From contig JABCZK010000016.1 in the NCBI GenBank assembly GCA_013289695.1, positions 1 to 64,000 on the forward strand: 64,000 nt of DNA, in the 5' to 3' direction. Below are positions 38,312 through 44,340 of this stretch, one piece after another. The notes beneath the pieces were generated by a model. It searched no databases. It had not been told where the DNA came from and saw only the letters and a list, made by a program, of their open reading frames with translations. Each line of letters begins with the position of its first letter. Position 1 is the first letter of the stretch. This DNA is from Acidobacteriota bacterium. GTDB lineage: Bacteria; Acidobacteriota; Terriglobia; Acidiferrales; UBA7541. The translations under genes were made by a program, and so were the position numbers.

Positions 38312-39034
38312 ATGAAAAGCAGAGTTCTCTCGGCCCTACTTGTTGCTGCATTGATTGGCCTTCCCGCCGTATTCAGCCCCGCGCTCTCGCACGCGGACGA
38401 TACCACCACCGATCAAGACCGCATTCGCAGCGCCGGCACAGTTCTGAAAGAAATCATGGACATCCCCGACGACATTCCCCAGAGCCTGATTGACAAAGCG
38501 GAGTGCGTGATCGTTTATCCGACCGTGCTCAAGGCCGCATTCATCGTCGGAGCAAGCTATGGCCGCGGTGTCATGACCTGTCGCACCGGCGAACATTTCC
38601 GCGGTCCGTGGAGCGCGCCCTCCATGATGGCTCTCGAAGGCGCCAGCTTCGGATTTCAGGCTGGCGGCCAGGCGACGGACTTCGTCATCCTGGTAATGAA
38701 TGACGGCGGTGCCAACGCCATTCTCGCCAGCAAGGTCAAGCTGGGCGGCGATGCCTCGGTGGCTGCAGGCCCCGTGGGCCGAAACGCCGCAGCAGATACG
38801 GACGTAACCCTGCGCGCGGAGATGCTCACCTACTCGCGCGCCCGCGGTCTGTTTGCGGGAATCTCCCTCGCCGGCTCCACCGTGCGCCCTGACAACGACG
38901 CCAACAGGCGCATCTACGGCAAGGACGTCTCGGCGCGCGATATCGTGCTGCGCGACGCGGTTCGTCCGACGCCAGACGCCAAGCTCTTGCTGGACACTTT
39001 GCGAGCGCATAGTCCCAAGAACTTGTCGAAGTAA
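38312..39034 (+). CDS. Exported SYLF/Ysc84-domain lipid-binding protein
   Basis: A 240-residue protein with a cleavable signal (to about SHA at 28-30). The SYLF domain shows DKAECVIVYPTVLKAAFIVG, GRGVMTCRT, and LLVMN-like FVILVMNDGG. ATG 38312 has AGGAGGGT upstream. A strong terminator follows, so the gene stands alone. The family binds phosphoinositide-like lipids in eukaryotes; the bacterial role is unclear. Confidence 0.9.
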   Translation: MKSRVLSALLVAALIGLPAVFSPALSHADDTTTDQDRIRSAGTVLKEIMDIPDDIPQSLIDKAECVIVYPTVLKAAFIVGASYGRGVMTCRTGEHFRGPWSAPSMMALEGASFGFQAGGQATDFVILVMNDGGANAILASKVKLGGDASVAAGPVGRNAAADTDVTLRAEMLTYSRARGLFAGISLAGSTVRPDNDANRRIYGKDVSARDIVLRDAVRPTPDAKLLLDTLRAHSPKNLSK

Positions 39035-39059: not shown

Positions 39060-39095
39060 GCGCCGGAGGCCCGTGCCTCCGGCGCATTTTTCTTT
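39060..39095 (+). terminator. Intrinsic terminator after the SYLF gene
   Basis: Eleven-base perfect stem GCGCCGGAGGC/GCCTCCGGCGC with a CCGT loop, followed by TTTTTCTTT. Confidence 0.9.
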
Positions 39096-39167
39096 CTGCG
39101 CTGCGTGATCTCTGTTTCCGCCAGCCCCCGGGCAGGCAGATGATTGCCATGTGACCAAAGTCCAATC

Positions 39168-39202
39168 TTGACTATTGGTCGGAATTGCCCTATAGTCAAT
39201 CA
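39168..39202 (+). promoter_or_regulatory. Promoter and dyad operator of the TetR-family gene
   Basis: TTGACT (39168-39173), a 17-bp spacer and TATAGT (39191-39196): a near-consensus promoter. TTGACTAT and ATAGTCAA form an inverted repeat that covers both boxes, as expected for an autorepressor site. The predicted TSS falls on or next to the ATG at 39202, so the transcript would be leaderless. Confidence 0.7.
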
Positions 39203-39900
39203 TGGCGTCCCCAGTGAAGGCCGCTCCTCGATCCTCTGTCTCTCGGCCAGTCAAAGCCGCGCCCCGCGCCGGCCGCCGCGAACGCCATCGTAATGAGACC
39301 CGCGACCGCCTCTACCGCGCCGCCCTCGCTCTTTTCGCCGAACGTGGTTTCCTGGAAACGACCGTGGAGGACATCACCGAAGCGGCCGATGTAGGTAAGG
39401 GGACCTTTTTCAATTATTTCCCCACCAAGGAGCACATCCTGGCCGAATTCGGCGGCCAGCGCACCGCCGCGGTGGAACGCACGCTCCTGCAAGCACGCGC
39501 GACAAAAGGACCCGTGCTCGACGTATTTCGCGAACTCGTGGGAGACGCCGTGGGCCAGGCCGATAAAAGCCCTGCACTGCTGCGCGCAATCTTCGCGGCG
39601 CACGCTTCCTGCACTTCCGTCCGCGCAGAACTGGTAAAGCGCAGCCACGTGGGCCGCCGCATCCTGGCGCAGATTTTTCTGCTGGCGCAAGAACGCGGCG
39701 AAATCAGGCGCGACATTCCGGCAATGGACCTGGCGCGCATGACCCAGCGAATCTTCATGGGCGTCACCATGAGCTGGGCTATCAAGCCCGATTCCACGCT
39801 GCGCAAAACCGCCGAACAGATTTGGGACTTCATCCAGCCGAACTTGTTACCCGCCGAACCCCGTGCCGCGCGCAAGCGGCCGCGGAGATCGAAAGCGTGA
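39202..39900 (+). CDS. TetR family transcriptional regulator
   Basis: A 232-residue repressor-type protein. A basic N-terminal tail (1-30) precedes the HTH domain (about 33-80: LYRAALALFAERGFLETTVE, ITEAADVGKGTFFNYFPTKE). The ligand-binding C-terminal domain is all helical, and the C-terminal tail is basic. It lies immediately upstream of and is co-oriented with TolC/EmrA/EmrB-type efflux genes. It probably represses both itself and the pump until a toxic ligand binds. Confidence 0.92.
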   Translation: MASPVKAAPRSSVSRPVKAAPRAGRRERHRNETRDRLYRAALALFAERGFLETTVEDITEAADVGKGTFFNYFPTKEHILAEFGGQRTAAVERTLLQARATKGPVLDVFRELVGDAVGQADKSPALLRAIFAAHASCTSVRAELVKRSHVGRRILAQIFLLAQERGEIRRDIPAMDLARMTQRIFMGVTMSWAIKPDSTLRKTAEQIWDFIQPNLLPAEPRAARKRPRRSKA

Positions 39901-39998: not shown

Positions 39999-41471
39999 GT
40001 GATAGCTCGACCGCTGCGATTCTTGATCCTTGTAATTCTGCTCTCATTCGCGGCTGGGCACGCTCGTGCACAGGCAGTCGCCGGTCCTGCCCCTGCTCCG
40101 GTGTCCTCTAGTTCGAGCAGCAGCGTGAGCAACAGTGCTCCCGCGGCTCCCCAAGCCCAAAGCTCATTCCAAGGCAGCGTGCCCGGAAAATTGGAACCGG
40201 GCGTGCTCCAGATTTCTCTGCAAGGCGCGATTGACCGCGGCTTGAAGACCAATCTGGGACTGCTCCTTTCGGATCAGGATGTCGGTTCGGCAAGAGGTGC
40301 GCGCTGGAAAAAATTGAGCTCGCTGCTCCCCAATATCACCACCAGCAGTTACGTGGACGGTTCGCAGGTGGACCTCGCGGAATTCGGATTTAACTCGATT
40401 CCCGGCGTGAACATTCCAACCATCATCGGGCCCTTCGGCTACTACGATTCACGCGCATACTTAAATCAATCTCTGCTCGATCTGAACGCCCTGAATAACA
40501 CTCACGTGGCGACGCAAAATTTGAAAGCCGCGCAGTACACCGCTAAAGACGCGCGCGATCTGGTCGTGCTCGCCGTCGGCTATAATTATTTGCAAGCCAT
40601 CGCCGACGCTTCGCGTATCGAATCCGTTTCCGCGCAAGTGAACACCGCGCAGGCTCTTTACAACCAGGCGGCCGATCAAGTGAACGCCGGCACTTCTCCA
40701 GCGATCGACGGCCTGCGCGCTCAAGTGGAACTGAAAACGCGCCAGCAACAGCTCATCCAGTCCAAAAATGATTTTGCAATCCAGAAACTCACTCTGGCGC
40801 GCGTCATCGGCCTCGCCGCCGGACAGCAATACGAGCTCACCGACAAATCGCCCTACGAACCATTCACCGCAATGACCCTTGACGAAGCACTGCGACGCGC
40901 CTACGCCTCGCGCTCTGATTTCATGGCCGCCAGCGCCACCGTGCGCGCCGCGGAATATACGAAAAAAGCGGCGCGCGCCGAATACTTTCCCTCACTTTCA
41001 TTCGGCGCAGATTACGGCGTCGCCGGCACCTACTCCACTCTCGCCACGCACGGCGTCTTCGATGTGCGCGGCACGCTGAACTTTCCCATTTTTCAGGGCG
41101 GCAAAGTGCACGGCGACGAACTGCAAGCCGACGCGCAGCTCGAGCAGGCTCGCCAGCGCCTGGAAAATATTCGCGGGCAGATCGACGCGGACGTGCGCAC
41201 GGCCTTCTTGAATTTGCAGTCTTCCGCCGAACAGGTGGAAGTCGCGAAAAGCAACATCGACTTGGCGCAGCAGACTCTGGACCAGTCGCGCGATCGCTTC
41301 GCGGCCGGCGTCGCGGACACGGTGGAAGTAGTGCAGGCCCAGGAGCAAGTAGCCACCGCGAACGACAGTTATATTTCCAGTCTTTATAGCTATAACTACG
41401 CGAAAATTTCCCTGGCACGCGCGGTGGGCCTGGCGGAAGCAAGCGTAAAAGAATATTTCAAAGGAAAATAA
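39999..41471 (+). CDS. TolC family outer-membrane efflux protein
   Basis: A 490-residue outer-membrane channel. GTG 39999 has AGGAGG six bases upstream and gives a signal peptide (FLILVILLSFAAGHARAQA), then a Ser/Pro-rich linker. Two TolC repeats follow, with LNQSLLDLNALNNT, FPIFQGGKVHGDEL and long coiled helices (VRTAFLNLQSSAEQVEVA). It starts 99 bp after the regulator stop and is followed by the adaptor gene after three bases. Confidence 0.93.
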   Translation: MIARPLRFLILVILLSFAAGHARAQAVAGPAPAPVSSSSSSSVSNSAPAAPQAQSSFQGSVPGKLEPGVLQISLQGAIDRGLKTNLGLLLSDQDVGSARGARWKKLSSLLPNITTSSYVDGSQVDLAEFGFNSIPGVNIPTIIGPFGYYDSRAYLNQSLLDLNALNNTHVATQNLKAAQYTAKDARDLVVLAVGYNYLQAIADASRIESVSAQVNTAQALYNQAADQVNAGTSPAIDGLRAQVELKTRQQQLIQSKNDFAIQKLTLARVIGLAAGQQYELTDKSPYEPFTAMTLDEALRRAYASRSDFMAASATVRAAEYTKKAARAEYFPSLSFGADYGVAGTYSTLATHGVFDVRGTLNFPIFQGGKVHGDELQADAQLEQARQRLENIRGQIDADVRTAFLNLQSSAEQVEVAKSNIDLAQQTLDQSRDRFAAGVADTVEVVQAQEQVATANDSYISSLYSYNYAKISLARAVGLAEASVKEYFKGK

Positions 41472-41474
41472 CCC

Positions 41475-42749
41475 ATGGCGCAGAAAACCGAAATCGATCT
41501 TCCGGCAAATCCTCCCGCTGCGGAAAAGCAGCCTCCTGCCGAAACTCATTCGGCCTCGCCGCCTCCCGCTCGCTCCGAAAGTTATTTCAAACTGCATCCG
41601 CGCGCGCCCATGTATTTGGCGATCGCCGCCGTCCTGCTCCTGGTTGCGAGTTTCTTTACCTATCGTTATTTTTCGATGTACGAAACCACCGATGACGCCG
41701 AAGTGGATGGCCATCTGATGCCTCTCAGCGCGCGCATCACCGGTTACGTCATCAAAGTGAACGTGGATGACAATCAGTACGTGGACGCCGGAACCGTGCT
41801 CGCCGAAATTGATCCCCGCGATTATCAAGTCGCGCTGGATCAGGCCAACGCGTCACTGGCCGACGCCCAAGCCACCGCGCAAGCCCTGAATATCAACGTC
41901 CCCATCACCTCCGTGAATTCCGACAGCCAGATTTCGTCGACGGAAGCGGACGTCGAAAACGCGCGCGCCGGAATTTCCGTCGCCCAGGATCAATTCAGCG
42001 CCGCAAAATCCCAGCTCGATCAGGCTCAAGCCAACGACGTGAAAGCGCAAAACGACCTGATTCGCTACAAACAGCTCGTGGACAAGCAGGAAATTTCCCA
42101 GCAGCTGTACGACCAGGCTGTCGCCGCGGCCAAAGCGAACAGCGCAGCAGTCGCTTCAGCTCACGCTTCGGCCACTGCAGCAGAGCAGCAAGTAACCCAA
42201 GCGCGCAGCAGGCTCGCGCAAGCCGATGCGAATTATCGCAACGCGCAAACCGGACCGCGGCAAGTAGCTTCCACGCGCGCTCGCGCGCTATCCGCTGACG
42301 CCACCGTGCAACAAAAACAAGCCGCGGTCGAACAGGCGCAACTGAATCTTCAGTACACGAAAATCATCGCTCCCGTGAACGGCGTGGTCAGCAAAAACGC
42401 TGAAGTCGGCATGAACGTGCAACCGGGCCAGCAACTCTTCGCCATCGTCCCGCTCGACGAAGTCTGGGTCACCGCGAATTACAAGGAAACGCAACTAAAA
42501 TACATGCGGCCCGGACAGTCAGCGGAAATTAAAGTGGACGCCAATGGCCGCACCTACCAGGCCCACGTGGATAGCATCGCCGGCTCCAGCGGCGCGCGCA
42601 CCAGCCTGCTGCCGCCGGAAAATGCCACGGGAAATTATGTGAAAGTGGTGCAGCGCATCCCCGTAAAAATCGTCCTCGATAAGGGACAAAACAGCGATCA
42701 CTACTTGCGCCTGGGAATGTCCGTCGAACCGAAAGTCAGAGTGAAATAA
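41475..42749 (+). CDS. HlyD/EmrA-type membrane fusion protein
   Basis: A 424-residue periplasmic adaptor. One membrane anchor (about 52-72), a lipoyl half-motif (DDAEVDGHLMPLSARITGYV), a long coiled hairpin (about 140-290), then the second lipoyl half (IIAPVNGVVSKNAEVGMNV) and a beta-barrel. It links the MFS pump in the inner membrane to the TolC channel. Confidence 0.94.
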   Translation: MAQKTEIDLPANPPAAEKQPPAETHSASPPPARSESYFKLHPRAPMYLAIAAVLLLVASFFTYRYFSMYETTDDAEVDGHLMPLSARITGYVIKVNVDDNQYVDAGTVLAEIDPRDYQVALDQANASLADAQATAQALNINVPITSVNSDSQISSTEADVENARAGISVAQDQFSAAKSQLDQAQANDVKAQNDLIRYKQLVDKQEISQQLYDQAVAAAKANSAAVASAHASATAAEQQVTQARSRLAQADANYRNAQTGPRQVASTRARALSADATVQQKQAAVEQAQLNLQYTKIIAPVNGVVSKNAEVGMNVQPGQQLFAIVPLDEVWVTANYKETQLKYMRPGQSAEIKVDANGRTYQAHVDSIAGSSGARTSLLPPENATGNYVKVVQRIPVKIVLDKGQNSDHYLRLGMSVEPKVRVK

Positions 42750-42750
42750 A

Positions 42751-44340
42751 TTGGGCGCTGCCGCAATCCCGCTCGATTCCGCCTGGCGTCCGCGTCCGGT
42801 TATTAATCCGTGGATCATCGCGCTCACGGTCACGCTCGCGACGTTCATGGAGGTTCTCGACACCAGCGTCGCGAACGTCGCCCTCCCGCACATCGCCGGC
42901 AGCCTTTCCGCCGGCCAGGACGAGAGCACCTGGGTTCTCACTTCCTACCTGGTTTCGAACGCTATCATTCTCCCGATGAGCGGTTGGTTTTCGCAACTCA
43001 TCGGCCGCAAGCGTTTTTACATGTCCTGCGTCGCGGTCTTCACCATCAGCTCGTTTCTCTGCGGCCTGGCGCCCAATCTCAGCATGCTGATTGTCTTCCG
43101 CGTGCTGCAGGGCATCGGCGGCGGCGGACTGCAACCCAGCGAACAAGCGATTCTCGCCGACACTTTCGAGCCGCGAAAACGCGGCATGGCTTTCGCCGTC
43201 TACGGCATGGCGGTGGTGCTGGCCCCGGCCATCGGTCCCACGCTCGGCGGATGGATCACCGACAACTTCAACTGGCGCTGGATTTTCTTCATCAATATTC
43301 CCGTCGGCATTATTTCGCTGCTGCTCACCAACATGCTCATCAGCGATCCCCCCTACATGAAGAAGGAAAAACGCACCGGCTTCCACATTGATTACATCGG
43401 CCTCGGCCTGCTCGCGCTCGGCCTCGGCGCCCTGCAAGTCGTGCTCGACAAGGGCCAGCGCGACGATTGGTTCGGCTCAAACTTCATCGTGATAATGACC
43501 GTCATCAGCGTTGTCGCCCTCATCGCTGTCGTTATCTGGGAGTGGCGCCACGAACATCCCATCATCGATTTACATTTATTCAAGATCCGTTCCTTCGGCA
43601 TCGGCAACATGCTGATGTTCATGGTCGGCTTCGCGCTGCTTTCCAGCACGGTGCTCTTGCCGCAATTTGCCCAGGAATTATTAGGCTACACGGCGCAAAG
43701 AGCGGGCCTCGCCTTGATGCCCGGAGGAATCGCGATTATTTTATGCATGCCATTCGTCGGCTATCTGCTCGGCCACACCGACGCGCGCCGCCTTCTTTTA
43801 TTCGGCCTCACCATGGTTTCGTTTTCCCTGATTCACATGACCAATTTCGACACCGCCATTGATTTCCGCACCCTGGCGACCGCGCGCGTATTTCAGGCCA
43901 TGGGCCTCGCATTTCTGTTCGTGCCCATCAACACCGCCGCATACGCCTTCATCCCGCCCGGCAAAAATAACGCAGCCTCCGGACTCATCAACCTCGCGCG
44001 CAATATCGGCGGCAGCGTCGGCATTTCGTTCGTCACCACCATGCTCGCGCGACGCGCGCAAGTGCATCAATCCAATCTCACCGCCCGGCTCAATTCTGGA
44101 AACGGCCAATTCCAGGCTGCGCTTGCGAACATCACGCACCTGCTGACCTCCCGCGGCTCCAGCCCCGCTGAAGCCGCTCGCCAAGCCTACGGAATGATAG
44201 CCTTCAATTTGAACCGCCAAGCCACCATGCTCGCTTACATTGACAACTTCTGGATTCTCGGCATCTGCGTCGCCGCCATGATTCCCTTCGTCTTCCTCAT
44301 GAAGAAAGTAAAACCCGGCGGCCCAATGGCGGTACACTAG
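42751..44340 (+). CDS. DHA2 (EmrB/QacA) family MFS drug exporter
   Basis: A 529-residue transporter with 14 membrane helices, started at TTG 42751, one base after the adaptor stop. The family motif is FMEVLDTSVANVALPHIAG in helix 1, then GWFSQLIGRKRFY. Together with the TolC and EmrA-like proteins it forms a proton-driven tripartite pump. The drug specificity cannot be read. Confidence 0.95.
   Translation: MGAAAIPLDSAWRPRPVINPWIIALTVTLATFMEVLDTSVANVALPHIAGSLSAGQDESTWVLTSYLVSNAIILPMSGWFSQLIGRKRFYMSCVAVFTISSFLCGLAPNLSMLIVFRVLQGIGGGGLQPSEQAILADTFEPRKRGMAFAVYGMAVVLAPAIGPTLGGWITDNFNWRWIFFINIPVGIISLLLTNMLISDPPYMKKEKRTGFHIDYIGLGLLALGLGALQVVLDKGQRDDWFGSNFIVIMTVISVVALIAVVIWEWRHEHPIIDLHLFKIRSFGIGNMLMFMVGFALLSSTVLLPQFAQELLGYTAQRAGLALMPGGIAIILCMPFVGYLLGHTDARRLLLFGLTMVSFSLIHMTNFDTAIDFRTLATARVFQAMGLAFLFVPINTAAYAFIPPGKNNAASGLINLARNIGGSVGISFVTTMLARRAQVHQSNLTARLNSGNGQFQAALANITHLLTSRGSSPAEAARQAYGMIAFNLNRQATMLAYIDNFWILGICVAAMIPFVFLMKKVKPGGPMAVH

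Follow-up and report, generated by a model that had tools for sequence, protein, structure and literature searches.

The gene of a TetR-family regulator in the window (the whole 64-kb stretch of acidobacterial DNA that was analysed) stands behind a promoter covered by adjacent 13-bp palindromes, which are repeated at a period of 17 bp and have been kept upstream of nearly all homologous regulator genes compared here. We consider it likely that the tetR-tolC-emrA-emrB operon is repressed by its own first product through these phased palindromes, and that the leader of the gene has shrunk, so that transcription probably starts at or near the AUG. The features of the region are collected in Table 1.

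Table 1. Positions of the features around the tetR promoter, numbered along the window
Feature	Position	Strand	Basis
SYLF/Ysc84-domain gene, upstream of tetR	38315-39034		domain search
Strong intrinsic terminator that ends the SYLF gene	39060-39092	+	-26.1 kcal/mol, z -5.9
Possible third, weaker operator copy TGACCAAAGTCCA, 8/10, also in 17-bp phase	39152-39164		tentative
32-bp dyad TTGACTAT...ATAGTCAA of the preliminary description	39168-39199		outer half-sites of two neighbouring palindromes
-35 hexamer TTGACT	39168-39173	+	direct reading, promoter scan
Putative operator copy over -35, TGACTATTGGTCG, 9/10 consensus positions	39169-39181		palindrome scan, homologue consensus
Putative operator copy over -10, TGCCCTATAGTCA, 9/10, exactly 17 bp past the preceding copy	39186-39198		palindrome scan
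-10 hexamer TATAGT, within the second palindrome	39191-39196	+	direct reading, promoter scan
tetR, TetR-family regulator, 232 aa, ATG start (MASP...), no Shine-Dalgarno	39202-39900	+	PF00440, AlphaFold, Foldseek
tolC, TolC-like outer-membrane efflux protein, GTG start after GGAGGA	39999-41471	+	OEP PF02321
emrA, EmrA-like periplasmic adaptor	41475-42749	+	TIGR00998, 239 bits, below the cut-off of 390.8
emrB, EmrB-like DHA2 MFS exporter	42751-44340	+	TIGR00711, 493 bits, cut-off 230

The letters of the window, read directly, are TTGACTATTGGTCGGAATTGCCCTATAGTCAA at 39168-39199, then TC, and then the ATG at 39202. In the promoter scan TTGACT-17-TATAGT scored as a sigma-70-type promoter with 10/12 positions, and two promoter-like matches were found in the 1.7-kb region against 0.3 expected. 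The repeat search returned the dyad with arms of 11 nt (39168-39178 and 39189-39199) that are 91% complementary. That a dyad overlies this promoter, as had been stated in the preliminary description, was thus confirmed at the level of the DNA by direct reading and by both scans; the span given there was too long, since its end at 39204 takes in the start codon and the last base of the dyad is 39199. With its spacing, the exact 8+8 dyad is present a single time in the 4.5-Mb genome, where a search with three mismatches gave two further matches, both poor. The second of the two promoter-like matches is the same element read on the minus strand (TTGACT-17-AATAGT, 39199-39171, 9/12); it results from the palindromes, and no divergent gene begins there.

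The earlier view of the operator as one long dyad was not supported, since all four half-sites are conserved across the homologues and together make up a pair of compact 13-bp palindromes with the 17-bp period. The consensus unit of 79 non-redundant homologous loci is TGACYNNNRGTCA with a 3-bp centre, a consensus derived from the same sequences on which the copies were counted. Among all 17-bp pairs of the 64-kb window, the two copies at 39169-39181 and 39186-39198 rank first (18/20), the second-best pair includes 39152-39164 (17/20), and the next best elsewhere reaches 14. This third copy is tentative as an operator because it is out of phase in the nearest relative, L085. A single TetR dimer sitting on TTGACTAT-N16-ATAGTCAA as one operator would agree with the observation that the outer half-sites are the best kept in the window and its genus (left TGAC in 17/17, right TGAC or CGAC), but conservation extends to the inner half-sites, where it is clearest beyond the genus, any two tandem palindromes give an overall dyad, and the third copy found at 34 bp in many homologues is not accounted for by it. 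Altogether this reading is very unlikely. As to the geometry, in TetR-family complexes the recognition helices lie 31-38 A apart, and 15-17 bp are bound per dimer and 22-32 bp by two dimers (PMC4150764), a reach far below the approximately 25 bp between the outer arms, therefore one dimer cannot span the dyad and two dimers, one per 13-bp palindrome, are the more natural assumption. Two or three dimers probably bind the array, and at 10.5 bp per turn neighbouring dimers spaced by 17 bp would be placed on roughly opposite faces of the DNA.

The conservation of the array carries the argument for autorepression. The regulator homologues were gathered from two sources, the related records being metagenome-assembled genomes (MAGs) of Acidobacteria or Candidatus Acidiferrales, and upstream palindromes were counted in the 79 non-redundant loci. 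All 79 have at least one upstream palindrome (at least 8/10), 75/79 have two spaced by exactly 17 bp, and 30/79 have another at 34 bp, that is, a third one; 20 rounds of dinucleotide shuffling produced no pair at 17 bp. In the 79-locus alignment the bases flanking the copies are near random and the palindromes stand out, therefore selection and not the shared descent of the whole region is indicated. The literal 32-bp dyad as the conserved unit is nearly absent in the relatives, which first suggested no conservation; scanning with the compact palindrome instead revealed its near-universal presence.

The own genome contains one such tandem array. Allowing one mismatch, the tandem pattern matched 18 of 20 genus genomes (the own genome and 19 others), and comparison with the positions of the tetR homologues placed each match directly upstream of a homologous tetR, while the reversed pattern, used as control, had no match in the same 20 genomes. 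When the own genome and those of the genus were searched for a regulon, no second target emerged. A conserved palindromic operator over the own promoter and nowhere else is the arrangement of a local efflux autorepressor, and with the pair kept in 75/79 homologues and the array in the genus always at tetR, the earlier proposal of autorepression by an operator overlying the promoter is well supported by the sequence comparison. It is hardly credible that another regulator, and not the tetR product, is the main ligand of the array: this would have to be reconciled with an array that tracks the tetR family in those 75 loci even where the pump changes from TolC-EmrAB to HlyD-ABC, and that is found nowhere else in the genus genomes.

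The regulator has an N-terminal TetR helix-turn-helix domain (PF00440, 56.2 bits against a cut-off of 24, E 2.9e-15), its AlphaFold model shows the all-helical TetR fold, including the C-terminal ligand-binding domain, with nine helices (pLDDT 92), and its best Foldseek matches all belong to the TetR family (3ANG, E 5.7e-9). The stretch of the recognition helix, GKGTFFNYF.xK (65-76 in the regulator of the window), is near invariant over 39 homologues. The N-terminal tail contains a repeated PVKAAPR (39210-39224 and 39246-39260, 80% DNA identity), which makes it longer than that of the relatives.

Domain and family searches together with the gene order bore out that this regulator heads a TolC/EmrA/EmrB-type operon: EmrB, EmrA and TolC family proteins are encoded together, as expected for an EmrAB-TolC pump, and the gaps from tetR to tolC, emrA and emrB are 98, 3 and 1 nt. 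Since the SYLF gene is ended by its terminator, the tetR promoter must serve the operon, and this terminator would insulate it; in the promoter scan the interval from tetR to tolC contained nothing that resembled a promoter. The order SYLF-tetR-tolC-emrA is kept through the genus, and the SYLF/Ysc84-domain gene directly precedes tetR throughout the genus as well as in many distant relatives. In some of the more distant relatives, L028 and L036 among them, SYLF, tetR and the array precede an HlyD-ABC-ABC2 exporter similar to YbhGFSR of E. coli and not TolC-EmrAB.

Operator and promoter appear to be made of the same units. TATAGT is found inside the palindrome TGACCTATAGTCA, and TTGAC in the preceding unit acts as -35; one copy lies over -35 and the next over -10 because the unit length of 17 bp is also the distance at which the two boxes become separated by a 17-bp spacer. 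In the homologue alignment TTGAC is overrepresented one unit of 17 bp before the palindrome that carries -10, and the -10 hexamer of the best promoter begins five bases into a palindrome copy in 56/79 homologues (the first copy of the best pair in 35/79 loci, the second in 21/79). Most genus members have copies over -35 (a weak one), over -10 and over the start of transcription. The window, L085 (genome G071) and L008 (genome G074), which form a clade with 99/97 support, have good copies over -35 and -10, therefore the array was shifted there by one unit upstream. We put forward, tentatively and as somewhat less likely than not, that in this Acidobacteriota TetR subfamily the promoter is built from successive operator copies (TTGAC as -35, TATAGT as -10) and can be displaced from the gene in steps of one unit, and that such a slide together with leader loss led to a leaderless, self-limiting repressor gene in one lineage.

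According to the proposed mechanism TetR would bind two, perhaps three, of the adjacent palindromes and so repress its own operon; as the copies cover both -35 and -10, bound dimers would exclude RNA polymerase. The regulator is presumably released by a substrate of the pump, which would lower the affinity of TetR for DNA and free the promoter, as in other TetR efflux repressors.

The distance from the -10 hexamer (TATAGT) to the ATG is 5 nt in the window, 25 nt in L085, 20 nt in L008 and 32-39 nt in most of the genus, where several members have GGAG before the tetR start; among the aligned start codons of the genus members the 5-nt gap is unique. Aligned with L085, the window is without 20 nt between TAGTCA and ATCATGG, and the short gap looks like a local leader deletion, a lineage-specific oddity known from one MAG that is 87% complete. 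It is improbable that the leader was lost through faulty assembly or binning and that the organism has a normal one. Such an error would fit the single genome available for the species and the leaders present in all relatives, but the flanks are otherwise coherent, the frame and the operators are intact, and a clean loss of 20 nt would be unusual for an assembly. With the leader reduced to 5 nt, transcription probably starts at the AUG or within a couple of bases of it.

No Shine-Dalgarno was seen before the ATG at 39202, whereas GGAGGA stands at tolC and AAGGA at emrA; a regulator gene lacking this element and downstream genes possessing it is the pattern of the leaderless AcuR type. Translation of tetR would therefore proceed without a Shine-Dalgarno and probably weakly, tolC and emrA keeping good ribosome sites. 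Folding detected no mRNA structure at the 5' end of tetR beyond chance. The start region CAATCATGGCGTCCCCA closely resembles AATCATGGCATCCCCC of L096, and for this reason 39202 is probably the inherited start; additionally, the tetR start aligns with the MASP/MASS starts of the relatives.

The exact first base is a narrower question. In sigma-70 promoters transcription usually starts about 7 nt after the -10 hexamer, which would place it at 39203. A start at 39202, making tetR leaderless, requires that the usual gap be reduced by one base, but the base there, an A lying 6 nt behind -10, is a purine and acceptable, and on the sequence we lean slightly towards this position. There is a real, if less than even, chance that the tetR mRNA is not leaderless, the transcript beginning 1-3 bases downstream of the A of the ATG (or from another promoter) and translation at the in-frame GTG at 39214 or elsewhere. 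If the start lies 1-2 bases inside the AUG, as it could, leaderless initiation there would fail and this GTG would be the fallback; its distance to the DNA-binding domain is the same as that of the ATG of some relatives. The GTG is itself without a Shine-Dalgarno, and the match between CAATCATGGCGTCCCCA and the start of L096 speaks for 39202. A broad leaderless signal was not observed in 464 kb of the genome, where gaps of 4-6 nt occurred in 4/23 promoter matches over 39 distances, numbers too few for a trend; one of these four cases, at 15305 of the window, is seemingly a false call inside a coding sequence. Acidobacteria are among the phyla with predicted leaderless genes (PMC3160421). The preliminary description had set the transcription start on the start codon and combined autorepression with leaderless translation: autorepression is upheld by conservation, and the leaderless start is plausible, the spacing and the lack of a Shine-Dalgarno being in line with it.

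The first gene of the emrAB operon of E. coli encodes EmrR, a MarR-family regulator. The EmrAB-TolC system there has the same tripartite MFS pump components of the EmrA and EmrB families; it differs in its regulator, a TetR protein taking the place of EmrR here, and in tolC, which in the window belongs to the same operon. The nearest solved relative of the regulator, by sequence (E 2.8e-20) and also by fold, is Thermus thermophilus FadR (TTHA0101; PDB 3ANG/3ANP). Agari et al. reportedly found FadR sites over -10 hexamers. As far as the accessible text on FadR goes (PMC5597230), its operator is palindromic too, but it is TTRNACYNRGTNYAA with a 1-bp centre between ACY and RGT, which the homologue consensus TGACYNNNRGTCA with its 3-bp centre does not follow; the same text describes fatty acid degradation as the regulated process and no tandem 17-bp phasing.

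TetR autorepression combined with a leaderless start is already known from acuR-acuI-dddL of Rhodobacter sphaeroides (PMC3017554). AcuR is likewise a TetR-family autorepressor encoded by the first gene, its operator overlaps the promoter no more than 36 bp from the ATG, and the first gene lacks the Shine-Dalgarno that the downstream genes have; the acuR mRNA was shown to start at the AUG, and translation of the regulator reaches about 7.5% of that of the gene behind it (PMC3017554). Tn1721 tetR is cited there as leaderless as well. AcuR differs in having one inverted repeat, TAATAGAC-n6-GTCTATTA, without a 17-bp-phased tandem, in controlling acrylate/DMSP genes, and in that its leaderlessness was proven experimentally (PMC3017554), whereas here it is deduced from the sequence. 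The regulator of the window is no AcuR orthologue, scoring 37.5 bits with the NCBIfam AcuR model against a cut-off of 247. The dimer-of-dimers repressors QacR, CgmR and CprB also place two dimers on an operator of 22-32 bp, and QacR controls efflux, but their sites overlap on opposite faces of one operator (PMC4150764); the two adjacent palindromes here imply two dimers on separate sites at a distance of 17 bp, without overlap, a geometry unlike the QacR type.

A literature search with limited coverage of subscription journals, and hence weak evidence, found neither work on TetR operators of Acidobacteria nor a described 17-bp TetR array. The 17-bp-phased palindrome array kept across this Acidobacteriota TetR group, independent of the pump, was thus not found described. 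It would represent a sharply defined operator code for a large TetR group of soil bacteria that have received little study, and this code was retained when the pump was swapped. Furthermore, the loci form a natural series, from copies over -10/+1 to copies over -35/-10 and then to the loss of the leader, in which promoter, operator and translation start are rearranged and which would let one ask how autorepressors turn leaderless. In seven distant relatives (L064, L066, L073, L076, L078, L082 and L083) an in-frame ATG, about 188 bases before the codon of the anchor residue, is formed by the first three bases of the operator copy ATGANNNNNGGTCA, so that what may be a start codon lies within the operator there.
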